Virus record (IMG/VR): IMGVR_UViG_3300042691_006088
Span: 1 to 28,419 of that record
Length of the DNA stretch: 28,419 bases
Origin: a virus
Strand: one strand, 5' to 3'
Within the stretch, counting starts at the first letter, position 1, and each line of letters starts with the position of its first letter. This document shows, piece by piece, positions 13,810 to 28,419 of the stretch. The position numbers and the translations under genes are program-made. The notes under the pieces are model-generated. The model was given only the letters and a program-made list of their open reading frames with translations, had not been told where the DNA came from and ran no database searches.

Positions 13810-15123
13810 ATGACACGAGTTATTGTAGCAGAAACTAAACATGATTGTGAAAATCTTATGGGTATGTTTCTTGATGAATCAAATTATGATATTCTAATCG
13901 AGGAAGATACTGATTGCTATTTGCCAGTTGGTTATGGTGAAGCGCCAAACGAACAGAAGATCGCTTTCAAATTCCGTAAGAACTTCTTTACTAAAGAAGA
14001 ACAAGACGCAGCATATCATGGACTAAGAGAAGCTGCTCAACGAACAGAGAATCGTGGCTTGGCTTCAGGTATTAAAGCTGGAACACAAGTTAATGGTGAA
14101 GGACGTGAGTGGGTTACTAACTATCAGGAAGAAATGATTAATGCGCTTCTTGATGGTCGCAAGGCATCTCTATTTTCTGGAGACCCAATTGAAAATGTTC
14201 GTTCAAAATATCCAACAGCAGAGTCACGTTTAAAGGCACTTGGCTCTGGCAAAAACAATGTTTGGGTTATCTCACGTTTCCGTGGTAAATTTAATTTTGA
14301 TGAGTGGGTTGATTCCATCAAAACTATGACGCCAGAAGAACGTGCTAAGTCATGTGAAGAAACCATGAAGATGATTAGCGAAACATCTTATGGCAATCCA
14401 GTTGATTCTGGTATCGCTGGTTGGTTTGATCGCTATCCACGTATCCCTTATGGTCGTGCTACAACTTATACAAGAGACAACTTTGATAAGTTTAAAATGG
14501 CATACCCATTCTTACAGCACTTGGCTAAAGGTTTTGCTGAGTTGTTGCCTTGGAGATATGGTAATCAAATGGCAGCAGCTAAGAAAATTGATTCTAGATT
14601 CCTTATCCCAGAAACACCATTTACAACAGTTACGGTGAACAAAACATTCCGTACTGCTGCTCATCGTGATGCTGGTGATTTGGATTCTGGTCTCTCAAAT
14701 CTGTTGACATTATCTAACGATGGTCGTTACTCAGGTGGGTATTTGATTTTCCCTGAGATCCGTATGGCTGTTAACGTGCGTCCAGGTGACTTGTTGTTGG
14801 TTAATAACCACGAAATCATCCATGGCAATACACCTATTGTTTGCGAAGAAGGTTCAGAGCGTGTAAGTTTGGTTGTATACTTCCGTGAAAAAATGCTAGA
14901 ACTTGGTAGCAAAGAATATGAAGATTTTCGTTTTGAATACGTTGAGCAACGTCGCTTGAATACTGAGCATCGCTTGTATAAGAAATTGTGGAATGGTGTT
15001 TCTCCAGGAATGTGGGAAGAGGAAGAATGGTATGACTTCTTGCGTGAGAAAGGTGGGGAACATATGCTTCACACTTATCATCCAAAGGCAAGTGCTGGTT
15101 CTCTCGCAGACTTTTTAGGATAA
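13810..15123 (+). CDS. TET/JBP-family 2-oxoglutarate/Fe(II) dioxygenase (DNA base hydroxylase)
   Basis: This is a 437-aa protein. Residues 271-351 carry the TET/JBP-type double-stranded beta-helix core: FTTVTVNKTFRTAAHRDAGD (metal ligands H285, D287), GRYSGGYLIFPEIRMAVNVR, then PGDLLLVNNHEIIHGNTPI (second histidine, probably H338), and R351 in ERVSLVVYF for 2-oxoglutarate. This family oxidises the methyl group of thymine (JBP) or 5-methylcytosine (TET) in DNA. No methyltransferase is seen nearby, which favours thymine or leaves the substrate open. Residues 1-260 have no recognised domain. The tail SLADFLG resembles clamp-binding peptides. A glycosyltransferase follows 6 bases later. Confidence 0.82.
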   Translation: MTRVIVAETKHDCENLMGMFLDESNYDILIEEDTDCYLPVGYGEAPNEQKIAFKFRKNFFTKEEQDAAYHGLREAAQRTENRGLASGIKAGTQVNGEGREWVTNYQEEMINALLDGRKASLFSGDPIENVRSKYPTAESRLKALGSGKNNVWVISRFRGKFNFDEWVDSIKTMTPEERAKSCEETMKMISETSYGNPVDSGIAGWFDRYPRIPYGRATTYTRDNFDKFKMAYPFLQHLAKGFAELLPWRYGNQMAAAKKIDSRFLIPETPFTTVTVNKTFRTAAHRDAGDLDSGLSNLLTLSNDGRYSGGYLIFPEIRMAVNVRPGDLLLVNNHEIIHGNTPIVCEEGSERVSLVVYFREKMLELGSKEYEDFRFEYVEQRRLNTEHRLYKKLWNGVSPGMWEEEEWYDFLREKGGEHMLHTYHPKASAGSLADFLG

Positions 15124-15129
15124 CATAAT

Positions 15130-16137
15130 ATGTCATTACATGAGTTTCTAGGTGAAGAAAAGTTACTAGAGTGGTTCTACTCAGCCAACTCTAGTAACAC
15201 AGGAAAGAAGATTGGCTATCGCAGGGTATCAGGTAAGATTGGTTTAACTAACCAAGAGAATGGTATTCGTGGTGCATGGGTAGAGAAACGTGTAGCATTT
15301 TTTAAGAACGTACTTGGCGCAGGTATGCGTATCATCCCTTTATCAGAACCAACTGAAGCAACAGCCAACGATGGCTTTGAATCTTTTGATACTTACCAAG
15401 AGTGTGATACACTTGTGCTTGAGTTTGGTGGTACTAACCTACAGTTCTATCAGAAGTATTGGGATAAAACTGTCGAGATGATCAAAGCGCACAAAGGTAA
15501 TATTGTATTTCTTAACGATGATCCAGACCTACCATTCCTTTGGGAGTTATTGCCTGATGAAGATTGGTCACGTTGGACTATCGCAGCTAATGCTGCAGTG
15601 CCATCTGAAGTTGCTACCATCCTAAAGTGTCCCGAAGGTTCAACTACTATTGACTTACCGATGGCATCAGGTATGGACTTCGCAAACTTTCATGCTGGTT
15701 CAATCGAGAAGGTAGTTTATATCGGTCGCCCAAATGGTCGCACTAAACACTTCAAAGAATATACAAAGTCATCATATCTTGAAGTAGCAGGTAAGGAAAC
15801 TGAATGGTCAGACTACGTTGGTTTGAATATCGTTGAGAATCCACAGCAAAGAGATAGACGTGCTTTCTATCAGAAGTATCATGGCTGTCTTGCTGTTTAT
15901 GACGACAAGCATAAGCGTTCAGGCTGGCGTACTGGTCGTGCTTACCATGCTGTCTATGCTGGCATTCCTGTCTGTGCGCCACAAGGTAACAACGGATTGG
16001 TTTGGTGTTTTCCTGCTGATAATGCGGAAGCGATCGAGAAGTTTGCTTCTCTCTCAGTTGAGAAACGTGAGAAGATTTGGCTGGCGCAGAAACAGTATAT
16101 TTTAAATACAGACAAGATAGATCTAAGTTTCCTATGA
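15130..16137 (+). CDS. GT-B-like glycosyltransferase, probably acting on hydroxylated DNA bases
   Basis: In this 335-aa protein the C-terminal half carries a GT-B donor-binding pattern: a strand KVVYIGRPNGRTKHF, a predicted strand GCLAVYDDKHKRSG, then WRTGRAYHAVYAGIPVCAP at about 266-284. That last segment is like the R-x(5-8)-A-G-P-V region of family B glycosyltransferases. The N-terminal half is Rossmann-like (CDTLVLEFGG, GNIVFLNDDPDLPF). It directly follows the TET/JBP-like hydroxylase, the known pairing for base-J-type and phage hypermodification, so the expected acceptor is a hydroxymethyl base; the sugar donor is unknown. The N-terminus, MSLHEFLGEE, resembles the clamp-binding motif. 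It overlaps the following HAD gene (ATGA). Confidence 0.7.
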   Translation: MSLHEFLGEEKLLEWFYSANSSNTGKKIGYRRVSGKIGLTNQENGIRGAWVEKRVAFFKNVLGAGMRIIPLSEPTEATANDGFESFDTYQECDTLVLEFGGTNLQFYQKYWDKTVEMIKAHKGNIVFLNDDPDLPFLWELLPDEDWSRWTIAANAAVPSEVATILKCPEGSTTIDLPMASGMDFANFHAGSIEKVVYIGRPNGRTKHFKEYTKSSYLEVAGKETEWSDYVGLNIVENPQQRDRRAFYQKYHGCLAVYDDKHKRSGWRTGRAYHAVYAGIPVCAPQGNNGLVWCFPADNAEAIEKFASLSVEKREKIWLAQKQYILNTDKIDLSFL

Positions 16138-17725: not shown

Positions 17726-19129
17726 ATGGCAAAGTTATATTTTCAGGGTAAGGCAGGATTTAATATGCTGGTGGATAAGAAGCCAGCATTGAAAGTCATC
17801 ATTCCTAAATTAAAAGATTTTGCTGCTGTTACCTTTCTTGAAACAGATGATGGAAAAATAACAGGTGGGGTTCCAATGCTAAAAATTGTTGACCCCAAAA
17901 GTTTTATCGCTGCTATCTCTGAGATCAGCACAATCAAAACTGCTAAGGTAACTGATCAAAAAGACAATAAGTTTTTAATTACAGTTGGCGCAGATAAAGT
18001 AAACATCTATAAATCTGGTGGTGGTTACAAGAATGTTATAGATCAGGAAGGTAATGCGCTTTCTTCTAAAACACCTACAACTGCTCAACAAGAAGATGGA
18101 ACTAGATTCTGTCTGGAGTATATCGCTAACAATGGCAAAATGCCAACCAAAGATTTAATCAATAAGACAGTTAAGTTTGATTTTGATAAAACATGGCATG
18201 AGTCCTTTGAGAAAACTATCAATGCTATTCTAACTGTTATACCAAAGTCTAGCATGAAAAGTTATGAATTCTATCGTGACAGTAATGCAAAGAAACCTGC
18301 TTTCCTGAATCAGATAACTGATCCAAAAGTTCTTCCTGATAGTAAAGATAACTGGAACCCATCAGACATATGGGCAGTTAAGAAAACAAGCATATCAAAG
18401 TTAGGAACAACTGTTGATGCGCTTTATAAAAAACTTCTCGCTGAGAGTGCTGGTATCGATGACCTAAACAAATTTGTTGAAGATAAATTTATTTCTAAAG
18501 AAATTATTGGTATCTCTCTGAAAAAGGTTGCTGGTCCAAAGGCTACAATTTCTAAGATTGAGACTGATGCAAAATACATTAAGAACATCAATTATACCAA
18601 ACCATGGAAAAAGTTCGAGTATAAAGTTTCTAATTCTTATTTCGATTTACTTCCTCAGTTTAAAGTATTTAAAGATGATGTAAATTATAGGTTCAGATTT
18701 AGACCACGTGGTAAATCTAATGAACTTAATACATATGGCGAAGGACAACCAGAGACAGCAAAAGTTTGGGATGGCGCTATTTCTAGAGACATGTTAAACA
18801 CTCAATTCCCAGGAATGATTACTGTAACTGATGATATGAAGAAAGTGTCAAAGGTAGCAGGAACTGTTGCTGTTCAAATTAAGGCTATGGGTAATCAAAA
18901 GTTCTATGAGAAATTTGCTGCCTACGTAGCTAAGGATCAATTCAAAATGGTTAAGGTTTCTGGCATGACTGATGTGATGTCAGAATATGAAGTCAAACGA
19001 GCAGTGGTTCTTTTGTATTATATTTACGCATTAGAAACAGCGTCAAACCCTGCAGCGATATACAAAAAAATGTATCTGGCAGCGAAGAAAATGAATGCCT
19101 TTTCCTCTGTCCACTACAAGGTTAGTTAA
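17726..19129 (+). CDS. Hypothetical protein, probably virion-related
   Basis: This 467-aa soluble, lysine-rich protein has no recognised domain. Visible segments are an N-terminal alpha/beta region (AKLYFQGKAGFNMLVDKKPA, then LKDFAAVTFLE), a central region with basic strands (VNYRFRFRPRGKSNEL) and a C-terminal helical region (KRAVVLLYYIYALETASNPA). There is no signal peptide or membrane segment. The Shine-Dalgarno sequence is weak; it is the second gene of a unit with 17403. Its position at the start of the late/structural block suggests a virion or assembly role, but this is inference only. Confidence 0.75.
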   Translation: MAKLYFQGKAGFNMLVDKKPALKVIIPKLKDFAAVTFLETDDGKITGGVPMLKIVDPKSFIAAISEISTIKTAKVTDQKDNKFLITVGADKVNIYKSGGGYKNVIDQEGNALSSKTPTTAQQEDGTRFCLEYIANNGKMPTKDLINKTVKFDFDKTWHESFEKTINAILTVIPKSSMKSYEFYRDSNAKKPAFLNQITDPKVLPDSKDNWNPSDIWAVKKTSISKLGTTVDALYKKLLAESAGIDDLNKFVEDKFISKEIIGISLKKVAGPKATISKIETDAKYIKNINYTKPWKKFEYKVSNSYFDLLPQFKVFKDDVNYRFRFRPRGKSNELNTYGEGQPETAKVWDGAISRDMLNTQFPGMITVTDDMKKVSKVAGTVAVQIKAMGNQKFYEKFAAYVAKDQFKMVKVSGMTDVMSEYEVKRAVVLLYYIYALETASNPAAIYKKMYLAAKKMNAFSSVHYKVS

Positions 19130-19163: not shown

Positions 19164-19192
19164 TTTACAATAATTCAGAATTCAGGTATAAT
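19164..19192 (+). promoter_or_regulatory. Sigma70 promoter for the HAD gene, predicted leaderless
   Basis: TTTACA (19164-19169) and perfect TATAAT (19187-19192) have a 17-bp spacer, and TTCAGG precedes the -10. The usual +1 position, 7 bases after the -10, is 19199, the A of the ATG of the following gene. Confidence 0.72.
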
Positions 19193-19198
19193 AAAGGT

Positions 19199-19813
19199 AT
19201 GAGGTTTAAAGAATATCTACTAAAAGAAGAAGAAAGTCTAGGTCGTCTATCCATATTCGATATTGACGATACCCTCTTCCATACCACTGCCCAGATCGCT
19301 GTTAAAAAAGATGGCGCAGTCCTAAAGAAGCTGACCAACCAAGAGTTTAATAATTACAAACTTGGGGCTGGTGAGTCCTTCGATTTTTCTGAATTCAAAG
19401 ATGCTGCCAAGTTTTATAAAGAATCAAAGCCAATCGCTAAGATGCTAAATACAGCAAGCAAGTTGGTTTCCGCTACAGACAGAAACCCTTTGAACAAAGT
19501 TATCATTGTTACTGCTAGAGCGAACTTTGATAATCGTGACAAATTTCTAGCAACCTTCCGTAAGCATGGTTTCGATATTGACAAGGTTCGTGTTGAACGT
19601 GCTGGTAATATGGAAGACAATAATATCCCTGCTGTTAAGAAGGCGATTATTATTCGTGAGTATTTAAAGACTAAACAATTTTCAAGAGTTGCTCTGTTTG
19701 ATGACAGCATGAGCAACCTAAAAGAATTCCTAAAATTAGGTAGAGAGTTTCCGATGATTAGGTTTAATGCCTACTTCGCTTTACCTGATGGACAAATAAA
19801 GTTGGTGAAATAA
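19199..19813 (+). CDS. HAD-superfamily hydrolase with a capsid-targeting-like N-terminus
   Basis: This 204-aa protein has HAD motif I FDIDDTLFHTT (D21, D23), motif II VIIVTARANFD, a conserved lysine helix (AVKKAIIIREYL) and motif IV VALFDDSMSNLKEF. This fits a polynucleotide- or nucleotide-phosphatase-like HAD. Residues 1-12 (MRFKEYLLKEEE) resemble the T4 capsid-targeting sequence of internal head proteins (MKTYQEFIAEA type) and include LKE, a gp21 cleavage-site pattern. It may therefore be packaged and injected. The ATG is at the predicted transcription start of its promoter. TAATG joins it to the ligase-like gene, which suggests 3'-phosphate removal plus end joining as a paired function; this is inference. 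Confidence 0.78.
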   Translation: MRFKEYLLKEEESLGRLSIFDIDDTLFHTTAQIAVKKDGAVLKKLTNQEFNNYKLGAGESFDFSEFKDAAKFYKESKPIAKMLNTASKLVSATDRNPLNKVIIVTARANFDNRDKFLATFRKHGFDIDKVRVERAGNMEDNNIPAVKKAIIIREYLKTKQFSRVALFDDSMSNLKEFLKLGREFPMIRFNAYFALPDGQIKLVK

Positions 19814-21042
19814 TGTTAAACTTAAAAGAGTATATTAGAGAAGAAAAGAATACCCATATGGAACACGTTGAGGATTTAATCTTCAACGAAGGTGTTCTGG
19901 GTACACGTAAAGCAATTAACTTCCTACAAGACTTGCGTGATATGTTGGCTGGTAATAGCAAGTCAAAAATTACTACTACTGTTAAGTGGGACGGTGCGCC
20001 AGCTGTATTTGCTGGTATTGATCCACGTGATGGCAAATTCTTTGTAGCAAAGAAAGGTGTCTTCAATAAAGAACCAAAGGTTTACAAGACACCAAAAGAA
20101 ATCGATGCGGATACCGAAGGCGACTTGGCAGCTAAACTGAAAGTTGCATTGGCAGAGTTTAAGAAGTTGGGTATTAAGTCTGGTGTTTACCAAGGCGACT
20201 TGATGTTCACTAACGATTTGAAAACAGAAACGATTGATGGTAAGAAGTATGTAACCTTCCATCCTAACACTATTGTATATGCTGTTCCATATGACAGCCC
20301 TCTTGCCACTAAACTACGTGCTGCTAAGATTGGTGTTGTTTGGCATACTACATATGAAGGTAGTTCGTTTGAAACAATGAAGGCTACTTTCGGTAAAGGT
20401 ATTGTTGACAAATTTAACAAGGTTGGTTCAATCTGGATGGATGATGCCAACTACAAAGATGTTTCTGGAACTGCTACCTTTACAGAATCAGAAACTACTG
20501 AAGTAACTTCCCTATTGTCAAAAGCAGGTGTATTGTTCAAGTCTATTAATGCTAATACTCTAAACAGCATTTCTAACAATACCGAGTTGCTTACATTGGT
20601 CAAGACTTTTAATAACTCCAAGGTGCGTGCTGGAGAAACTATCTCTAATCCAAAGAAACACGTTGATGAGTTGTTTGATTATATCCATGGCAAATATCAG
20701 AAAGACATGGATAAGTTGAAGACAGAAAAAGGTAAGGCTGGTGTCAACGAAAAGCGCAAAGCTGTAATGGCTTTCTTTGCAAACAATGACAGGAAGTCTA
20801 TCGAGAGTGTATTTGAGTTGGCTAATGTTTTGACTGAAGCGAAGAAGTTGATTATCGCCAAGATGAATAAAGCTGGATCTATGAAGACTTTCCTAAAGAC
20901 TGCTAATGGATTCAAGACGACTGGCGTAGAAGGGTTTGTTGCTATTGACCACTTGCGTGGTGGTGCCGTAAAGATCGTTGATCGCTTAGAGTTTAGTAAG
21001 GCAAACTTCTCGCCAGAAATTATCAAAGGTTGGCAGCGATGA
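19813..21042 (+). CDS. DUF6267-type protein with ligase/nucleotidyltransferase motifs
   Basis: This 409-aa protein resembles the DUF6267 proteins of marine T4-like phages (NTHMEHVEDLIFNEGVLGTR). Its motifs match the covalent nucleotidyltransferase fold of DNA/RNA ligases: motif I VKWDGAPAVF with K58-W-D-G61, a motif III-like strand SGVYQGDLMFTND, motif IV EGFV (373-376) and motif V AVKIVDR with K387. It may be an ATP-dependent nucleic acid ligase or RNA-end-modifying enzyme. The N-terminus, MLNLKEYIREEKN, is capsid-targeting-like, so packaging in the head is suspected. It overlaps the HAD gene by one base and the next gene by 4. Activity is not proven. Confidence 0.68.
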   Translation: MLNLKEYIREEKNTHMEHVEDLIFNEGVLGTRKAINFLQDLRDMLAGNSKSKITTTVKWDGAPAVFAGIDPRDGKFFVAKKGVFNKEPKVYKTPKEIDADTEGDLAAKLKVALAEFKKLGIKSGVYQGDLMFTNDLKTETIDGKKYVTFHPNTIVYAVPYDSPLATKLRAAKIGVVWHTTYEGSSFETMKATFGKGIVDKFNKVGSIWMDDANYKDVSGTATFTESETTEVTSLLSKAGVLFKSINANTLNSISNNTELLTLVKTFNNSKVRAGETISNPKKHVDELFDYIHGKYQKDMDKLKTEKGKAGVNEKRKAVMAFFANNDRKSIESVFELANVLTEAKKLIIAKMNKAGSMKTFLKTANGFKTTGVEGFVAIDHLRGGAVKIVDRLEFSKANFSPEIIKGWQR

Positions 21043-21713
21043 GCAGTCTAAATGATTTAGTTAGTCTTATGCGTGAGGCTAAGGAGAAAAGTCCAGAGCA
21101 TAAGATTATCAAAGAAGTAAAAGAAAACATTCAATCTGATTTGAGTGTATTGTTTGAGGAGTTGGCTTCTCTACAAAAACATAAAGAAAAACTTGTAGAA
21201 GAAAATCCAACTCTACTAGAAGAAACACCAATACCAACTCCAGTCGGTGTTACACCAACAGAACTACAGATACCAAATATTGATAAGTATCTAAGCACTC
21301 CAGCTGGTATTGCAGCTCCAGTAGATCCATTAACAAAACAATTTAAAACTGTTGATGCTAAAATAAAATTTCTTGAGCAGTGGATCGCTAAAATACAAAA
21401 CGCTGGTCCAGGTGGTGGCGCTGGTGACGTAGTAAACCTAGATCACCCAACAACGCTAGTAACAACACCTTCATATACAGTTGGTAGAAAAGATTATTAT
21501 ATTGGCGTAAATTATGCTGGCACAGTAACATTAACTTTACCTTCTATTGTTAAGAATGGTAGATACCTTATAATCAAAGATGAATCTGGAAGATGTTCAA
21601 AATTTCCAATAATTGTTCACGGAAATGTTGATAATGATCCAAACGGATTTATCTTAAAAATAGACAACGGTGGTATACAGATGATTTATAGAGATGGTTG
21701 GAGAATAGTATGA
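21039..21713 (+). CDS. Virion structural protein (fibre-type C-terminal domain)
   Basis: This is a 224-aa protein. Residues 1-60 are helical and charged (NDLVSLMREAKEKSPEHK, then LFEELASLQKHKEKLVEE). A proline-rich linker follows (ETPIPTPVGVTPTELQIP). The C-terminal beta domain YLIIKDESGRCSKFPIIVHG ... GFILKIDNGGIQMIYRDGWR is a common ending of fibre or structural proteins in marine T4-like phages. It is therefore probably attached to the tail or fibre. The ATG at 21039 overlaps the preceding stop and has AAAGG 9 bases upstream; the upstream TTG at 21030 does not fit the ribosome site. Confidence 0.7.
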   Translation: MSSLNDLVSLMREAKEKSPEHKIIKEVKENIQSDLSVLFEELASLQKHKEKLVEENPTLLEETPIPTPVGVTPTELQIPNIDKYLSTPAGIAAPVDPLTKQFKTVDAKIKFLEQWIAKIQNAGPGGGAGDVVNLDHPTTLVTTPSYTVGRKDYYIGVNYAGTVTLTLPSIVKNGRYLIIKDESGRCSKFPIIVHGNVDNDPNGFILKIDNGGIQMIYRDGWRIV

Positions 21714-22936
21714 CGTATTTATTTCAGGAGAGTCAAAATGTTGATGCGTTTGGAAGAGGACGCACCAGCGAACCATATACGCTTGGTGATTATAAACACA
21801 TCTTTGGTTTAGATCCAAACTTTATTGATTATACTGTTAATGGTGCAACACTAACATATCAACCCAATCAAGCATGTGCAAGATTAACAACTTCAAATAA
21901 TCCAAACTCAAGACTTGTTCATCAAAGCAAATTCTATCATCACTACATGCCTGGAAAAAGTCAGGTTATCCTTTCTAGTTTTAACTTTTATACTGCAGTC
22001 CCAAACGTAACTAAACGAACAGGGTATTTTGATGACAATGATGGTATCTATTTTGAACAAACAGGTGATGGTACACTAAACATTGTTGTTAGAACTTATG
22101 TTACTGGTGCGCCAACAGAAAGAAGAATACCTCAGTCTCAATGGAATGGGGATAAATGTGATGGTACTGGATCTAGTGCTTTCAATTTAGATATAACCAA
22201 AACGCAATTATTTTGGATTGACTTTCAATGGCTTGGTGTTGGTAGAGTTCGTTGTGGTTTTGTTCATGATGGGCAATACGTAATCGCTCATGCATTTAAC
22301 AACAGTAATAATTTACCCACAGTTTATATGAGTAATCCAAACCTACCTATCCGTTGCGAACTTGTTAATGTAGGAACAACTACTGGTGGTTACTTCGATC
22401 AAATCTGTTCTACTGTTATGTCAGAGGGTGGGTATGTTGAAGCTGGAACCGATTGGGCGCAAGCAAACATTCCAAGAACTCTTACATCTGGGCAGACTCT
22501 ACCAATCATGGCGATTCGTTTAAAGAATGCCTTTAGAACCTATAAAAATAGAATGATTGTTCGTATGGGTAATTTGTCTGTTTTTAGTAGTGGTGAAAAT
22601 ATCGGTTGGAAATTGATTAAGTTACCTAACACATCTAATTTAACCGAAACAACATGGACTCCAGTCGATGATGATAGTGGAGTTGAGTATTGTGTGGATG
22701 CTACGGCATATACTGATGGTGATTGTATCGATGCAGGATGGGTCGGTGCTTCTACGCAAGGTGCTCTTAAAGCTGGTGGTGCTCCAGGAGCAGATCTACC
22801 TTCATCAGCCAAGAAAAACTATATTGTTCAGAACTATGATTCTACAGACTCAGAGATTTATGTTCTAGTAGCTACAAATCTAGGTACTCAAAGTACTACT
22901 GTTGGTGTTGGAATGCAATGGCGAGAGATATATTAA
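21710..22936 (+). CDS. Virion structural protein (T4-like marine phage type)
   Basis: This 408-aa protein opens QNVDAFGRGRTSEPYTLGDY, a start shared by a family of virion structural proteins of cyanophages and pelagiphages. It continues as a beta-rich protein without charged coiled coils (FDDNDGIYFEQTGDGTLNIV, WIDFQWLGVGRVRCGFVHDG, GTTTGGYFDQICSTVM). It is likely a fibre or capsid-decorating component. The ATG overlaps the preceding stop (ATGA); an upstream start at 21698 would add four residues without a better ribosome site. A late-promoter-like element follows. Confidence 0.8.
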   Translation: MTYLFQESQNVDAFGRGRTSEPYTLGDYKHIFGLDPNFIDYTVNGATLTYQPNQACARLTTSNNPNSRLVHQSKFYHHYMPGKSQVILSSFNFYTAVPNVTKRTGYFDDNDGIYFEQTGDGTLNIVVRTYVTGAPTERRIPQSQWNGDKCDGTGSSAFNLDITKTQLFWIDFQWLGVGRVRCGFVHDGQYVIAHAFNNSNNLPTVYMSNPNLPIRCELVNVGTTTGGYFDQICSTVMSEGGYVEAGTDWAQANIPRTLTSGQTLPIMAIRLKNAFRTYKNRMIVRMGNLSVFSSGENIGWKLIKLPNTSNLTETTWTPVDDDSGVEYCVDATAYTDGDCIDAGWVGASTQGALKAGGAPGADLPSSAKKNYIVQNYDSTDSEIYVLVATNLGTQSTTVGVGMQWREIY

Positions 22937-22947
22937 AGTCTAGATTG

Positions 22948-22955
22948 ACTAAATA
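22948..22955 (+). promoter_or_regulatory. Late-promoter-like element ACTAAATA
   Basis: ACTAAATA carries the TAAATA core and lies in the 52-base gap before the 997-aa structural gene, 34 bases upstream of its ATG. A TTGACT overlaps it but lacks a matching -10. Confidence 0.45.
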
Positions 22956-22988
22956 ATAGATAAAGTAATATTTTATAGATGGGTAAAA

Positions 22989-25982
22989 ATGAAGAAATAT
23001 AGACAACTAATTAAAGAGTTGCCTTCCAAGAAGGTTGTATTTGCGTTTGGTCGCTTCCAGCCACCAACCACAGGACATGAACTCTTAGTAAAAGCTGTTC
23101 AAAAAGTTGCGTCTGCTCAGGGAGCAGACCATGTCATTTATGCTTCTAAGACTGAAGACAAGAAGCAAAACCCACTCCCAGTTTCCCGTAAAGTATATTA
23201 CCTCCAGCGTATGTTTCCTGGAGCTAATTTTAAAGCAGCCAACGAACAAGTAAGAACATTTATCGAAGCTGCTAAAGAATTAAACAAGCGTTACAAGAAT
23301 ATTGTTATGGTTGCAGGTAGCGACCGTATCGCAGAATACAAAAAGATTTTAGAAAAGTATAACGGAACTGAATTCAACTTTGATACCGTTACTGTAGTTT
23401 CTGCTGGTGAAAGAGATCCAGATTCAGATAACGCTACAGGTATGTCAGGTACAAAGATGCGTGAAGCAGCAAAGGCTGGAAAGTTCTCTCAGTTTAAAAA
23501 GGGTGTTCCTAAAACTCTTACCGACTTAGACGCACGCAGACTGATGAATGAAATTCGCAAAGCATATGACCTTGCGCCAGTTAAAGAATCATTAAATATA
23601 ACAGTTGATGACCTACGTGAAAGATATTTCCGTGGCGAGATCTTTAATGTGGGCGACGTTGTTGTTTGCGAAAACAAACAATGCGTTGTCGTTAAACGTG
23701 GTTCAAATCATCTACTATTAACAGAAGAAGGAACAGACGTGAAATTTACTCGTTGGATTAAAGACGTGTATCTTCAAGAGGATTATGAAAATCCAGAAGA
23801 TCACAATCAAGTTAGCTGGCAAGGCTACACAACTAAACACTTCGACTTAGATACTTCAGTTGTTGATGCGTTCAACACTAGCATCCACTCAGGCGACGCA
23901 AGTGCCGTAGATATTCTACACGCAATGAAAGAAGTTGATGAGTACATGGGACATCTTAAGGCTGCAATTGCAACAAGACAAGCATCTCCTGAAGTAGTCA
24001 ACAATGTCAAAGTTCATATGGATAGAGCAAGAGAGCATCTTGCTAAGATGGGTCAAGCAGAACACCATGACAACTATTTAAAAACGCATGGCGACCATAT
24101 CGAAAAACTTGCGTCTGACTATAAAGAAGCAGGTAAAGAAGAGATGAATGATTCTGTTAAAGTAACTGGTACAGTAATTGAAAACCTAACAAACAAAACA
24201 TTAAAACCAAGTTCTGCTGATCAAATTAAAGCAGCTAGAATTATTGCTACTACACTTGGTGTTGACAATGTTGAAGCTACAACAAACCCAGAGCAGATTG
24301 TTAACATGGGATTGCGTAAGATTAAGAACAAAGCATTGAATGCAGAGTCATATGAAATCCTAAGACGTATGTTGAAGATGGCAACCGATATCGGTATTGA
24401 GTTTGATACCAACTTAATGCCACAAAAATTAAAAGAAGCATACTATAATAAGTTACTCAGCTATGATACTGAAGGTAGAATGACTGAAGTGGATACAGAC
24501 AATGATGGTATCCCAGATTGGTTAGAAAGAAACATGACGAAGGTTGGCGAAACCTTACACAATGAACCACAAAACGATCAATTAAGAAAACAAAAAATTC
24601 ACTATCACTTAGGAGAAGCCAACGGAGATCCTAAGAAACTTGCTCGTGAAGTTGCTAAGGCTGCTCTTGCTGCAAAACATGCTAGAGAAAAAGAAACACT
24701 ATCTAAAAAGCATGAGCAAGAAAAAGAAAACATAAAAGAAAACTTTAAAGACCTACATTCTGCAATGAAGTATGCGAGCGATAAAGTTAAAACGCATAGA
24801 GATCCAGATGATGGTATTGAAATTTACAAACATAAATCTGGTAGCTATGATGTAAACCACACAATGAATGCTAGTGGTCGCAACTCTTTACAAAAATTAG
24901 GTGCTAAGCATCTTGGAACTGTTCGCAGAGATAACAGTTTTAATATCAAGCATAACGTAAAAGAAGAATTTGATTTAAGTGAAACAGCTTTAAACGCAAA
25001 AGATCCACATGGTGATTACAAAGAGAAAAGTAAAGCACTACATCAATTGTCAATGAACAAAGATGTGGATCAAGAGCATGTTAAGCAACGCAAACTAGAT
25101 TTAGAAAAAGAATATTCTAAGTATCGCAAAGAAGAATTTGATTTACTAGAACAAATAGCAGAAGCAATCGACAAGGGCGAGTATGACTATGAAGGTCAAA
25201 TGGCTCGCACTCAATTACAAACTACTCTACGTAATTGTAAAGATATGATTGAAATGCTCAAAGACGATGACAACATGCCAGAGTGGGTTCAGTCTAAGAT
25301 TACATTGGCGCAAGATTATATTACAACAGTTAGAGATTATCTCCAATCAAAAGAAGAACTTGGTGAAGATTATGTCCAAGCAGCTGATCAAAAGATTGGT
25401 AAAGATGGTAAGAAACATGCAGCTCGCCTAATTAAAATTGGTTCTGATGGTCCAGGTGAAAAGAGATCTGTAGGTAACGATCGCTTCTCAGAAGAAACCG
25501 AAGAAGAGTTTACGGAAAAAGATATTGATGACATCGTCAACCAACACAAAGATTGGGAAGATATCCTTGACGGATATGACGATGAAGAGTTGGCTATTGT
25601 TGACGACGAGACAGGCGAAGAACTAGAAGACAGCCTAAAAGAAGAAGCGTTGAATGAAGTTCTTTCAAGACTAGAACGCATTAAAGCAAAGACACGTTTC
25701 GCTAGATCTAAATCTAAACGTATGGCAAAAGCGAAAGTTGCTTTAAAGAGATCTTCTCCACAATCTGTAATTAACACTCGTGCACGTAGACTTGCTATTA
25801 AAGCAATCAAGCAACGTATTGCTAAGAAACCATTGGCTTCTCTATCAGTTGCTGAGAAAGAACGTCTAGAGCAACGCATCGCTAAGATGAAACCAGTGTT
25901 AAATAGAATTGCGATGAAATTGGCTCCACGTGTTCGTCAGATCGAAAAAGCAAGACTATCTCATAGTAAGTACACAAAATGA
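22989..25982 (+). CDS. Nucleotidyltransferase-fused modular virion polyprotein
   Basis: This is a 997-aa protein. Residues 14-170 form a cytidylyltransferase/NMNAT-like domain: FGRFQPPTTGH (20-30) and the C-terminal SGTKMR (152-157). Residues about 213-260 look like a KOW/SH3-type beta domain (FNVGDVVVCENKQCVVVKRG). A calcium-binding-like loop DTDNDGIPDW begins at 502. Residues about 721-790 match a helical module of marine T4-like structural proteins (YDYEGQMARTQLQTTLRNCK, NMPEWVQSKITLAQDYI). The last 110 residues are very basic (RRLAIKAIKQRIAKK). Modules are separated by KEEFDLSE, KEEFDLLE and KEEALNE (657, 714, 884), which contain LxE-type gp21 cleavage patterns. The N-terminus (MKKYRQLIKELP) is capsid-targeting-like. 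It is probably a head-internal protein. Confidence 0.8.
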   Translation: MKKYRQLIKELPSKKVVFAFGRFQPPTTGHELLVKAVQKVASAQGADHVIYASKTEDKKQNPLPVSRKVYYLQRMFPGANFKAANEQVRTFIEAAKELNKRYKNIVMVAGSDRIAEYKKILEKYNGTEFNFDTVTVVSAGERDPDSDNATGMSGTKMREAAKAGKFSQFKKGVPKTLTDLDARRLMNEIRKAYDLAPVKESLNITVDDLRERYFRGEIFNVGDVVVCENKQCVVVKRGSNHLLLTEEGTDVKFTRWIKDVYLQEDYENPEDHNQVSWQGYTTKHFDLDTSVVDAFNTSIHSGDASAVDILHAMKEVDEYMGHLKAAIATRQASPEVVNNVKVHMDRAREHLAKMGQAEHHDNYLKTHGDHIEKLASDYKEAGKEEMNDSVKVTGTVIENLTNKTLKPSSADQIKAARIIATTLGVDNVEATTNPEQIVNMGLRKIKNKALNAESYEILRRMLKMATDIGIEFDTNLMPQKLKEAYYNKLLSYDTEGRMTEVDTDNDGIPDWLERNMTKVGETLHNEPQNDQLRKQKIHYHLGEANGDPKKLAREVAKAALAAKHAREKETLSKKHEQEKENIKENFKDLHSAMKYASDKVKTHRDPDDGIEIYKHKSGSYDVNHTMNASGRNSLQKLGAKHLGTVRRDNSFNIKHNVKEEFDLSETALNAKDPHGDYKEKSKALHQLSMNKDVDQEHVKQRKLDLEKEYSKYRKEEFDLLEQIAEAIDKGEYDYEGQMARTQLQTTLRNCKDMIEMLKDDDNMPEWVQSKITLAQDYITTVRDYLQSKEELGEDYVQAADQKIGKDGKKHAARLIKIGSDGPGEKRSVGNDRFSEETEEEFTEKDIDDIVNQHKDWEDILDGYDDEELAIVDDETGEELEDSLKEEALNEVLSRLERIKAKTRFARSKSKRMAKAKVALKRSSPQSVINTRARRLAIKAIKQRIAKKPLASLSVAEKERLEQRIAKMKPVLNRIAMKLAPRVRQIEKARLSHSKYTK

Positions 25983-26260
25983 TAACATTTAAAGAGTTCC
26001 TACTAAACGAAGCTACCTATCAAGGTAAGACTGTACCACTTAACAAACCAATGGCTGGTGATGTTAAGAAGTCGAAGGTATATGTTGATCCAGATGGCGA
26101 CGGTAAAGCGCAGAAAGTAAACTTCGGGGATAAAACTTTAAGTATTAAGAAGAATAATCCTAACCGCAAGAAATCTTATTGTGCAAGATCTTCTGGTCAG
26201 GGAAATTTAACCGATAAGACTAGCGCAAATTACTGGTCTAGAAAAGCATGGGACTGTTAA
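25979..26260 (+). CDS. DUF6321-like small protein with a capsid-targeting N-terminus
   Basis: In this 93-aa protein, residues 1-12 (MITFKEFLLNEA) are a clear match to the T4 capsid-targeting type, ending in LNE-A, an ideal gp21 cleavage site. The rest, KPMAGDVKKSKVYVDPDGDG, AQKVNFGDKTLSIKKNNPNR, then KKSYCARSSGQG and SANYWSRKAWDC, matches the phage family I know as DUF6321. It is basic and has three cysteines near the end. It is probably a DNA-associated internal head protein after cleavage. The ATG overlaps the previous stop (ATGA). Confidence 0.8.
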   Translation: MITFKEFLLNEATYQGKTVPLNKPMAGDVKKSKVYVDPDGDGKAQKVNFGDKTLSIKKNNPNRKKSYCARSSGQGNLTDKTSANYWSRKAWDC

Positions 26261-26261
26261 A

Positions 26262-26708
26262 ATGAATGAACTACAAGAACAAATGAAGGTGGTGTTGGCA
26301 GATTCTTTTATGATGTATCTAAAGGCGCAAGGCTACCACTGGAATGTAGAAGGAATTTTGTTTCCAATGTTACATGACTTCTTTGGAAAAATATACGAAG
26401 AGGTTTATGGTAGCATTGATGTAACAGCTGAAGAGATTCGTGCATTGGGTGCTGTTGCTCCACATACACTTATTGAGTTTGATAAATATAGAACGGTGAT
26501 GGATACATCAGCTACTGGTGCTCAAGGTATGATTGCTGATTTGGTTCAAGTAAACCAATCAGTTTTATCTTCATTAATGCAAGCATTCAGATTAGCTGAA
26601 GCAGCAAATGAACAAGGGTTGCTAGATTATCTAGCAGGTAGAATCGATGCTCATAAAAAACATAATTGGATGTTGACATCAACATTAAAATCTAGCGGAG
26701 AACAATAA
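26262..26708 (+). CDS. Dps/ferritin-like protein
   Basis: This 148-aa protein begins with the Dps helix A pattern YLKAQGYHWNVEG. The intersubunit ferroxidase ligands of Dps proteins occur with the usual spacing: H26, H38, D53 and E57 (LHDFFGKIYEEVYGSID, then TAEEIRALG). It would oxidise Fe(II) with peroxide and protect DNA, during infection or in the head. There is no capsid-targeting N-terminus and no basic DNA-binding tail. It lies one base after the DUF6321 gene and directly before another internal-protein-like gene, so it is expressed with the head genes. The Shine-Dalgarno sequence is weak. Confidence 0.82.
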   Translation: MNELQEQMKVVLADSFMMYLKAQGYHWNVEGILFPMLHDFFGKIYEEVYGSIDVTAEEIRALGAVAPHTLIEFDKYRTVMDTSATGAQGMIADLVQVNQSVLSSLMQAFRLAEAANEQGLLDYLAGRIDAHKKHNWMLTSTLKSSGEQ

Positions 26709-28419
26709 ATGTTATCTTTTAAAGAAGCCTTAAAAGGCAATCAACATAAGATTGATAAAAACAAAAACGGCAAAGTTGATGCGCACGACTTTCACTTGCT
26801 ACGCAAGAGCAAAAATGCTATGAAAGAAGACATTACTGAAGCTACAGTTACTACTAAAAAATATTCTTGGGGTACAATGAAGACTGTGCACCACGGTAAA
26901 GACTTCTCTATTCCTTTGCACCCAGAACATCATCAAGCAATCGCAAAATTAAAAGACGAACAAGAACATAAATTCAAAGATGAAACTGGTCGTCATTGGA
27001 CAGCACGTCGCAAAGGCGCAGATGTTCATTTTCAATCAGCAAATGATGGTCCAAAGACACAAGTAAAACATTCTACTATGTCTGAAGAAGTTGACTTAGA
27101 AGAAGAAGGTCTAAAGGATGCATGCTGGAAAGGTTACACTGCTGTTGGAATGAAGATGAAGAACGGTAAGAAAGTTCCAAATTGTGTTCCCGTAAAAGAA
27201 GATAAAGACGAAGCTGGCGAAGACGAAGACGAAACTGAAGATGAAGATGAAAAGTGCGAAGACTGCGGTATGCCAGAAGCAGAGTGTGAATGTGAAGATG
27301 AAGACGAGAAGGAAATGAAAGAAGCGAAAAAGAAATCAATGTGTGAAGGTAAGCACATTGTTTCTGTTACTATTTCAAATCCAAATCACACTATGGTTTC
27401 TCAGCGTAATGAGAAAAAGATGCGCAGAGCAAAAGTAACTGCTCCAGACAAAGATACTGCTATTAACACTGCTCTTGCATATTACAAGAAGAGTGGTTAT
27501 AAAGTTCATGACCACAACTACGTCGGTCTTCATAACGAAGAAAAAACTACAGTAGTAAGAGATAAAGAAGGTAAAATGAAAAGCTGGAGTTATGAGGGCG
27601 ATTGGAAAAAGGCGCAGAATAAAGACCCACGTGGTAAAGTCACTAACATGAGTGACAAAGCCCAACGTCAAACTGCTTCTATGAAAGAAAATGCTCCAGT
27701 TGCTCCAGTACCTGATAAGAAATATATCAAAGGTACACCAGAGAACAAAGCATACAAAGCATCTAAGAAACCAATCAATGGTCATCCAACAAATGTTAAA
27801 GAAGATGTTGAACAGATTGATGAATTGTCAAAATCAACTTTGGGTTCTTACATCAAAAAAGCTGCGCATGATGCTACTATTCAACGTAAAATCGGTGCTG
27901 ATTTTGAGAACATGGCAGACAAGGCTAGAAAACCTAGTTCGAAAGAAGCATCAACATCGCTTGCGAACAAATACAAAGCAAATTCATGGAAACGTAAAGC
28001 TGGAGTTAATAAAGCAGTTGATCGTTTAACTAAAGAAGATGTTGCTATTGATGAAGCCAGCCAAACATGGCATCATGCTGGTGTAGTAAAACATAATACT
28101 ACAGGAACATATCATTCAAAAGCAATGAACGCATACGGTAATGTTGTAGTTCATAAGAAGCCATTCAAAACTTCTGCTGAGGCTGATGATTTCGGTAAGG
28201 CAATAAACAAAAAGCGTACCAGTGCGGTTCACGACTACAACACTTCTCGTTCTACTTTCTCAAAAGAAGAATATGAAATGAACGAAATGCGCATCAATGG
28301 TCGTGAGTATGCGTCACAAGGTGTTATGCATCCAGACCACGCTAAGATGGATATTCATAAAGTATCTGGTCAATCCGTTGACTTCTATGCAAGTAAGACT
28401 GGCGACAAGATGCACGGTA
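26709..28419 (+). CDS. Modular prohead/virion protein, 3' end outside the window
   Basis: The frame starts at the ATG directly after the Dps stop and stays open to the window edge (at least 570 residues). The N-terminus MLSFKEALKG is capsid-targeting-like and is followed by an EF-hand loop, DKNKNGKVDAHD (16-27). Later come a short conserved phage segment, DACWKGYTAVGMKMKNGKKV, an acidic stretch with a CxxC pair (KCEDCGMPEAECEC), and a helical module, IDELSKSTLGSYIKKAAHDA ... KAVDRLTK. Linkers MKEDITEA, VKEDVEQIDEL and TKEDVAIDEA each contain an IxE pattern expected for gp21 protease cleavage. It is probably an internal scaffold or core polyprotein. Confidence 0.78.
   Translation, partial: MLSFKEALKGNQHKIDKNKNGKVDAHDFHLLRKSKNAMKEDITEATVTTKKYSWGTMKTVHHGKDFSIPLHPEHHQAIAKLKDEQEHKFKDETGRHWTARRKGADVHFQSANDGPKTQVKHSTMSEEVDLEEEGLKDACWKGYTAVGMKMKNGKKVPNCVPVKEDKDEAGEDEDETEDEDEKCEDCGMPEAECECEDEDEKEMKEAKKKSMCEGKHIVSVTISNPNHTMVSQRNEKKMRRAKVTAPDKDTAINTALAYYKKSGYKVHDHNYVGLHNEEKTTVVRDKEGKMKSWSYEGDWKKAQNKDPRGKVTNMSDKAQRQTASMKENAPVAPVPDKKYIKGTPENKAYKASKKPINGHPTNVKEDVEQIDELSKSTLGSYIKKAAHDATIQRKIGADFENMADKARKPSSKEASTSLANKYKANSWKRKAGVNKAVDRLTKEDVAIDEASQTWHHAGVVKHNTTGTYHSKAMNAYGNVVVHKKPFKTSAEADDFGKAINKKRTSAVHDYNTSRSTFSKEEYEMNEMRINGREYASQGVMHPDHAKMDIHKVSGQSVDFYASKTGDKMHG

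Follow-up and report, generated by a model that had tools for sequence, protein, structure and literature searches.

A probable T4-type capsid-targeting tag on enzymes encoded in a variable block of a marine T4-like phage genome

Why do a phosphatase, a ligase-like protein and a nucleotidyltransferase encoded close together in a virus genome begin with a similar leader of some ten residues? The question is raised by the IMG/VR virus record IMGVR_UViG_3300042691_006088 (G000), the whole 28,419 bases of which were analysed and are here called the window. We conclude that the leader quite probably tags these enzymes of a marine T4-like phage for the capsid, in the manner of T4. This best reading is well supported by the T4 spacing of the tag residues, their clustering in one genome block, the published detection of tagged orthologues in virions, and the occurrence of the same domains in tagged and untagged form. 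The tagged proteins probably travel inside the particle, and the bacterium may receive them along with the DNA. The genes concerned are as follows, with a slash marking the predicted cut.

15130..16137, plus strand: protein of no assigned function, 335 residues; strict tag-like start MSLHEFLGE/E, kept in two close homologues.
19199..19813, plus strand: HAD-type phosphatase, 204 residues; tag MRFKEYLLKE at 19199-19228, predicted cut after LKE.
19813..21042, plus strand: DUF6267 RNA/DNA-ligase-like protein, 409 residues; tag MLNLKEYIRE at 19813-19842; PF19782, E 1.2e-108.
22989..25982, plus strand: PPAT/NMNAT-type adenylyltransferase (cytidyltransferase-like) with a long charged tail, 997 residues; tag MKKYRQLIKE at 22989-23018; phrog_3041, E 9.9e-68.
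25979..26260, plus strand: HVA1/DUF6321-like protein, 93 residues; tag MITFKEFLLNE at 25979-26011, then ATYQGK; phrog_7595, E 2.1e-12.
26709..28419, plus strand: start of a long charged modular protein of at least 570 residues that runs off the window end; N-terminus MLSFKEALKGNQHK, which fails at the processing position; inner [LI]DE sites.

The window is a piece of a T4-like marine myovirus genome and encodes a clamp, a clamp loader, a DNA polymerase, a RecA-like protein and a gp41-type helicase (names assigned partly by inspection of the sequence). By the DUF6267 protein, its closest isolates are Methylophilales phage Melnitz-3 (53%) and Pelagibacter phage HTVC008M (39%). A 105-kb IMG/VR contig (G001, also locus L009) encodes a DUF6267 protein 100% identical to that of the window, together with homologues of gp20, gp21, gp22, gp23 and gp61; its gp21, gp22 and gp23 are 54%, 46% and 61% identical to those of Melnitz, and the gp21 and gp22 genes fall outside the window itself. 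The genes from 19199 to 26709 sit within a variable block flanked by gp41 and gp61, which is syntenic in Melnitz-3, HTVC008M, S-WAM1, P-HM1 and S-SZBM1. Family counts below use a simple start caller that agreed with 31 of 35 annotated starts, and since the IMG/VR loci are akin, locus counts are counts of non-independent events.

Mutagenesis of the T4 internal protein IPIII assigned targeting to residues 4 and 7 and processing to residues 8 and 10, and the gp21 cleavage site lies after L/I-x-E (PMC9026906). We took the tag motif from this spacing as ^M-x(1-3)-[FYWL]-x-x-[FYWL]-[LIVMF]-x-E, with hydrophobic or aromatic residues at i and i+3, a hydrophobic residue at i+4, and E at i+6 or, with one optional extra residue before it, one position later. 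The genes at 15130, 19813 and 22989 fit strictly, those at 19199 and 25979 with the extra residue. A sequence-only reading of this DNA had proposed the tag for the products starting at 19199, 19813, 22989, 25979 and 26709. All five starts and N-terminal sequences are as it gave them, all five fit its loose common start pattern by eye and four run into L/I-x-E; the T4-type spacing holds for these four, while the start at 26709 (MLSFKEALKG) lacks the processing E and fails the IPIII-spacing motif. The fifth fitting gene, 15130, was outside its list. Five of the 43 called window genes fit, against a mean of 0.44 after shuffling, and 0 of 2000 shuffles reached five. Among 112 called open reading frames in 61 kb of T4, the motif matched two, IPII and IPIII, a control that shows specificity and not independence because the spacing derives from IPIII; IPI and Alt, inside the same 61 kb, were not picked up. 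Other patterns were set aside. The exact pattern of the sequence-only reading, with K/R after the aromatic residue, was too narrow (3 of 219 proteins of phage S-CREM2, none on its virion list), two looser patterns were weakly associated with S-CREM2 virion proteins (p 0.11 and 0.06), and a first, looser motif (22 of 125 block genes and 40 of 1120 others) was replaced by the published IPIII spacing.

The motif is concentrated in the gp41-gp61 block. In six genomes with orthologues common to them (G001, G002, G003, G005, Melnitz-3 and HTVC008M) it occurs in 15 of 125 block genes vs 3 of 1120 genes elsewhere (p 3e-13); no gp61 was found in G003 or G005, and there the 19 genes after gp41 were counted as the block. 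Additional tagged families are MFATFIDFLTE/E and MIKFSEFIDE/G in G003 and MQGFKTFLSE/A in Melnitz, the last in the position of the window's phrog_1462 gene, a position at which several related loci have a tagged gene as well. Outside the block, Melnitz-3 (MZ577098) encodes a Zeta-toxin-like P-loop kinase (65855-66523) and a RimK-like ATP-grasp protein (82-1131) with the tag-like starts MKTFAELQE/G and MTQKFSQFITE/E, respectively.

The leader also behaves as a separable part. The DUF6267 protein bears the tag in all 79 window-type loci (in 65 at the called start and in 14 from another in-frame start) and in 0 of 139 cyanophage-type loci (0/72 of the S-SM1 type, 0/67 of the S-SZBM1 type); its N-terminus is MLNLKEYIREE-KNTHMEHVED in the window vs MAKNTHLEHLED in S-SZBM1. 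All 20 window-type orthologues of the HAD protein are tagged, and the linker that follows differs in length among them. For the adenylyltransferase, the tag is present in 78/80 and 77/77 loci of two cyanophage types and, as called, in 31/48 window-type loci; of the 17 untagged window-type proteins, six match the motif when another start is taken, and among the other 11, which do not, some have E one residue earlier (LLE/G, LVE/S, LME/G). Tag similarity exceeds linker similarity in the cyanophage forms of this enzyme (0.57 vs 0.38; 0.85 vs 0.75). In locus L054 a tag stands directly before a complete protein (MKTFREFILE-MATANTVLSD), the untagged homologues of which start MATANTILSD or MTANTILSD. 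Relatives of the 25979 protein are tagged, and in Melnitz this domain lies within the adenylyltransferase protein. When 1398 proteins of the loci were clustered by body, 23 clusters had at least one tagged member and 12 mixed tagged and untagged ones, as judged by an earlier, looser tag rule and with some untagged cases being misplaced starts. In the AlphaFold2 model of the DUF6267 protein (predicted local distance difference test 86.5) residues 1-15 score below 50, and in that of the adenylyltransferase the tag is helical at residues 4-9 with moderate confidence.

Virion proteomics of related phages connects the tag with the particle. S-SM1 virions contain the citidylyltransferase T4-GC190 (Sullivan 2010, PMC3037559), and the same kind of enzyme has been reported in virions of S-CREM2 (PMC10665884), S-SZBM1 (PMC9146016) and S-SCSM1 (PMC9602691 and a record note). 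All four are orthologues of the 22989 enzyme and carry the strict tag (S-SM1 MKKFSAFLNE/A, S-SZBM1 MRFRQFIIE/A, S-CREM2 MKNFSSFLTE/A, S-SCSM1 MKSFLQFLKE/A). Published detection concerns these orthologues, not the window phage, its HAD protein or a tagged DUF6267 protein. The packaging in the head that the sequence-only reading proposed thus keeps its capsid-targeting part, through tagged orthologues in virions, spacing and clustering, with virion data from relatives only. In S-SZBM1, the untagged DUF6267 neighbour (gene 141) is absent from the 30 virion proteins listed as detected and the tagged enzyme is among them. In S-CREM2, the strict motif occurs in 7 of 219 proteins, five of them on the 52-protein virion list and two among the 167 undetected (Fisher 0.009); with the 26 non-structural or unknown virion proteins set against all others, the association is 2.9e-4. 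This test is not blind, as the residue sets of the motif were picked after viewing S-CREM2 N-termini; the spacing comes from the published T4 work. With the T4 peptide as sole query, five of the top seven S-CREM2 N-termini belong to virion proteins (hypergeometric 0.009), a result matched within the top eight by 12 of 500 shuffled T4 peptides. The five tagged S-CREM2 virion proteins are all non-structural or of unknown function:

SAM (S-adenosylmethionine) lyase, MKDFDSFLEE (PF23780).
Kinase-like protein, MKRFDAFLTE.
Protein with the start MKDLHSFLTE.
Protein with the start MQTFSMFFSE.
Adenylyltransferase, with the tag given above.

These data also bear on the idea that a generic amphipathic helix, serving in membrane attachment or oligomerisation and unrelated to the head, accounts for the leader. 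The first half of the motif is indeed an amphipathic helix, in agreement with residues 4-9 of the adenylyltransferase model, but such a helix leaves unexplained the L/I-x-E at fixed spacing, the scarcity of the motif outside the block and the virion association in S-CREM2, and we regard it as most improbable.

Promoter-like sites precede two of the tagged genes.

22949..22955, plus strand: late-promoter-like CTAAATA, 40 nucleotides before the 22989 start.
19164..19192, plus strand: sigma-70-like promoter TTTACA-17-TATAAT, 11/12 match, ending 6 nucleotides before the 19199 ATG.

The last 60 nucleotides upstream of the start contain [ACT]TAAATA in all 22 distinct tagged adenylyltransferase genes vs 95 of 743 untagged genes, so that the adenylyltransferase looks late, as expected of head cargo. 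The T4 late octamer TATAAATA showed no enrichment in the window. The -10 box 6 nucleotides from the HAD start codon is found in most orthologues too, which suggests a nearly leaderless early transcript.

Cleavage of the tagged cargo by gp21 is predicted by analogy. Capsid proteins of these phages have comparable sites (Melnitz SAFLSE/A, S-SZBM1 GILTE/A, S-CREM2 GLLTE/A, S-SCSM1 SFLAE/A, G001 QLFE/T), their positions being assigned by analogy with T4 FLTE/A. A polyprotein reading, with gp21 sites between the modules of the long tails, was rejected since the adenylyltransferase tail has no excess of sites; inner [LI]DE-type sites are clearly enriched only in the 26709 family (L017 and L011, 0 of 1000 shuffles for [LI][DSNE]E). 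In their length, charge, modular build and excess of inner sites, the proteins of that family resemble gp21-cut core proteins and would suit another explanation, in which the tagged proteins are gp22/gp67-like helpers of prohead-core assembly that are mostly lost or degraded at maturation and have no role in host delivery. Such a role is quite unlikely given the clear enzyme folds on tagged proteins, the recovery of enzyme orthologues from mature virions and the ordinary number of inner sites in the adenylyltransferase tail.

Several results weigh against capsid targeting. None of the 23 HTVC008M block genes fits the motif. In S-SCSM1, the proteins of which were fetched once the motif was already fixed, 4 of 282 proteins fit and only one of these is among the 48 virion proteins (p 0.53), and several untagged block proteins were detected in the virion; the tag is therefore neither required for virion detection nor a perfect predictor of it. 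Pooled with S-CREM2, 6 of 100 virion vs 5 of 401 other proteins fit (p 0.011). S-CREM2 virion proteins were not set apart by an unanchored hidden Markov model built from the N-termini of block proteins (p 0.38), and an anchored matrix from window-type loci gave p 0.23 over the whole S-CREM2 ranking; it placed five virion proteins in the top eight, with no S-CREM2 protein at threshold. A strong sigma-70-like promoter (at least 10/12) is present in 16 of 17 distinct HAD upstream regions vs 47 of 743 untagged genes, and a sigma-70-like one also precedes 14 of 42 DUF6267 genes. The HAD gene, with DUF6267 behind it, hence looks early, not late, which weakens, without excluding, the packaging of these two proteins. 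In many of the window-type adenylyltransferases the predicted cut falls before Leu-Pro (KE/LP), an unusual P1'. Finally, CsCl preparations may include abundant non-virion proteins (PMC10665884, PMC9602691). The authors of both proteomics papers raise this point, and the S-SCSM1 list includes a translational repressor; virion detection could accordingly reflect carry-over of abundant cell proteins, and tag likeness be a by-product of recombination at gene starts. We consider this very unlikely, as this kind of enzyme turned up in each of four separate phages and the S-SZBM1 detections include the tagged protein but not its untagged neighbour.

Under capsid targeting, each leader would be a short amphipathic segment that binds the prohead core and places the attached protein inside the prohead. 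The phage gp21 protease would cut the leader after (L/I)-x-E, and the cut enzymes would remain in the head and enter the host along with the DNA, where they may act. The gp41-gp61 block would then be a cargo locus, in which one leader fronts many unrelated proteins.

What the cargo might do depends on its enzymes, and the labels that the sequence-only reading gave them bear up. The 19199 protein matches phrog_415 (polynucleotide kinase; E 4.5e-9 over residues 16-181), has the HAD motif FDIDDTL and resembles a polynucleotide kinase 3'-phosphatase, its predicted activity; it had no match in Pfam. The DUF6267 model aligned (VIA-align) to Naegleria RNA ligase (Z 9.6, root-mean-square deviation 3.7, 186 residues) and RNA ligase 1s68 (Z 8.4), the best structural matches being RNA ligases. 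As the best Foldseek E-value was 0.031, with none at or below 0.001, the ligase match is moderate and the protein is described as RNA-ligase-like. K58 (in K58-W-D-G), E373, G374 and K387 are invariant in 38 sequences; we take them to be the ligase motifs I (K-x-D-G), IV (E-G, E373-G374) and V (K387). The AlphaFold2 model of the 22989 protein matched nicotinate nucleotide adenylyltransferase in Foldseek (E 1.8e-6) and PPAT in VIA (Z 14.8), and F-G-R, P-P and G-H (the GH signature of the HIGH type) are invariant in 28 sequences; by its model it is a PPAT/NMNAT-type adenylyltransferase, both PPAT and NMNAT matching as to substrate. PDB sequence searches with the HAD, DUF6267 and adenylyltransferase proteins gave no usable match. 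A functional link between DUF6267 and the adenylyltransferase is suggested by PHROG 455, a single profile that covers both. At its C-terminus the 22989 protein has a basic module that resembles, by eye, a separate Melnitz gene (MZ577098 14525-14917) with its own tag-like start MKKFSELTSELIE.

The same reading had suggested a packaged DNA/RNA end-repair kit of ligase, phosphatase and nucleotidyltransferase that mends ends after injection. Its first two members find support in the ligase-like DUF6267 protein and the likeness of 19199 to polynucleotide kinase phosphatase, and HTVC008M and Melnitz have a P-loop kinase with a tag-like start (in Melnitz at a separate place). The third does not fit, the adenylyltransferase fold being of the PPAT/NMNAT kind; moreover, DUF6267 is untagged in cyanophages, and early expression is suggested for the HAD genes and some of the DUF6267 genes. 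A pure repair kit is therefore unlikely. Candidate cargo kinds include ligase-like, phosphatase, PPAT/NMNAT-like and nuclease-like proteins in the block and SAM lyase and kinases elsewhere in the genome. With SAM lyase, kinase-like and nuclease-like proteins among the tagged relatives, the cargo looks like a mixed early-takeover set. Given this variety and the fold of 22989, our preferred guess is a mixed set of proteins that would act in the first minutes of infection, in agreement with the action of T4 Ip1, Ip2 and Ip3 against restriction enzymes (PMC9391042, PMC12373910). A further proposal, on which we are evenly divided, is that in marine T4-like phages the gp41-gp61 block is an exchangeable cargo island, one protease-site leader being swapped among unrelated enzymes and modules that are preloaded in the head and act before phage gene expression.

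The following genes complete the neighbourhood.

13810-15123: Tet_JBP oxygenase-domain protein, 437 residues (PF12851, E 2.3e-23).
17726..19129, plus strand: phrog_1462 protein, upstream of the cluster; untagged.
21039..21713, plus strand: 224-residue protein with the weaker, longer variant start MSSLNDLVSLMRE/A, which misses the IPIII spacing.
21698..22936, plus strand: virion structural protein, untagged, inside the cluster (phrog_1645, head and packaging, E 3.9e-115).
26262-26708: Ferritin/Dps-like protein (PF00210), untagged though within the tagged cluster.

Relatives of the 21039 protein start MSELNDFLKLMAE/G and MSELNDFLKLISE/A. The Tet_JBP domain hints at DNA base modification, and the Ferritin/Dps-like gene is found at a similar place in many related loci. 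The genes directly upstream of DUF6267 are varied in L012, L016, L052, L078 and L083 and have PD-(D/E)XK-like motifs by eye, Pfam giving no convincing match; other proteins at this position are tagged in L013, L018, L048 and L063. The S-CREM2 virion protein gp12 (OR473000 7704-10313) is labelled Cas9, a label that looks doubtful as the protein has no Pfam match, and has an inner FASFMAE/A site at residues 19-26. S-SCSM1 gene 93 (MK867354 91626-91835) encodes a 69-residue virion protein with the tag-like C-terminus RTFKEFLEYIE.

Among known systems, T4 IPI, IPII, IPIII and Alt share with the proteins described here the targeting and processing spacing, a short leader on unrelated bodies, here predicted to be removable, T4-like head genes and a variable locus. 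They differ in that several of the present cargo proteins are enzymes of known fold and not small inhibitors, that the locus is the gp41-gp61 block, and that the leader, known here from sequence, often reads F/L-K-E-Y/F-L/I. P1 DarB likewise has an N-terminal packaging signal on a large protein thought to enter the cell, but the accounts consulted report no common leader consensus for Dar proteins, and P1 is described as having no T4-type scaffold. The ejection proteins of the giant phages phiKZ and SPN3US are described as head proteins cleaved after Glu by a gp21-related protease, but with S/A-x-E as the phiKZ motif; their propeptides are longer. The cyanophage virion cytidylyltransferase/NMNAT (T4-GC190) is the orthologue of the 22989 enzyme, and its proteomics literature, as far as consulted, proposes no packaging signal. 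In the open-licence PMC literature, a search for capsid targeting and cyanophage turned up only a review, and no paper was found on DUF6267 or DUF6321.

The tag offers a reason for the recurrence of a cytidylyltransferase/NMNAT-like enzyme in cyanophage virions, and its ten residues make it possible to list, across a large group of ocean phages, proteins that are candidates for injection. Such candidates include likely counter-defence enzymes, for example the tagged SAM lyase of S-CREM2, and the tag suggests that the DUF6267 and HVA1-like families may be at work within the host as soon as infection begins.

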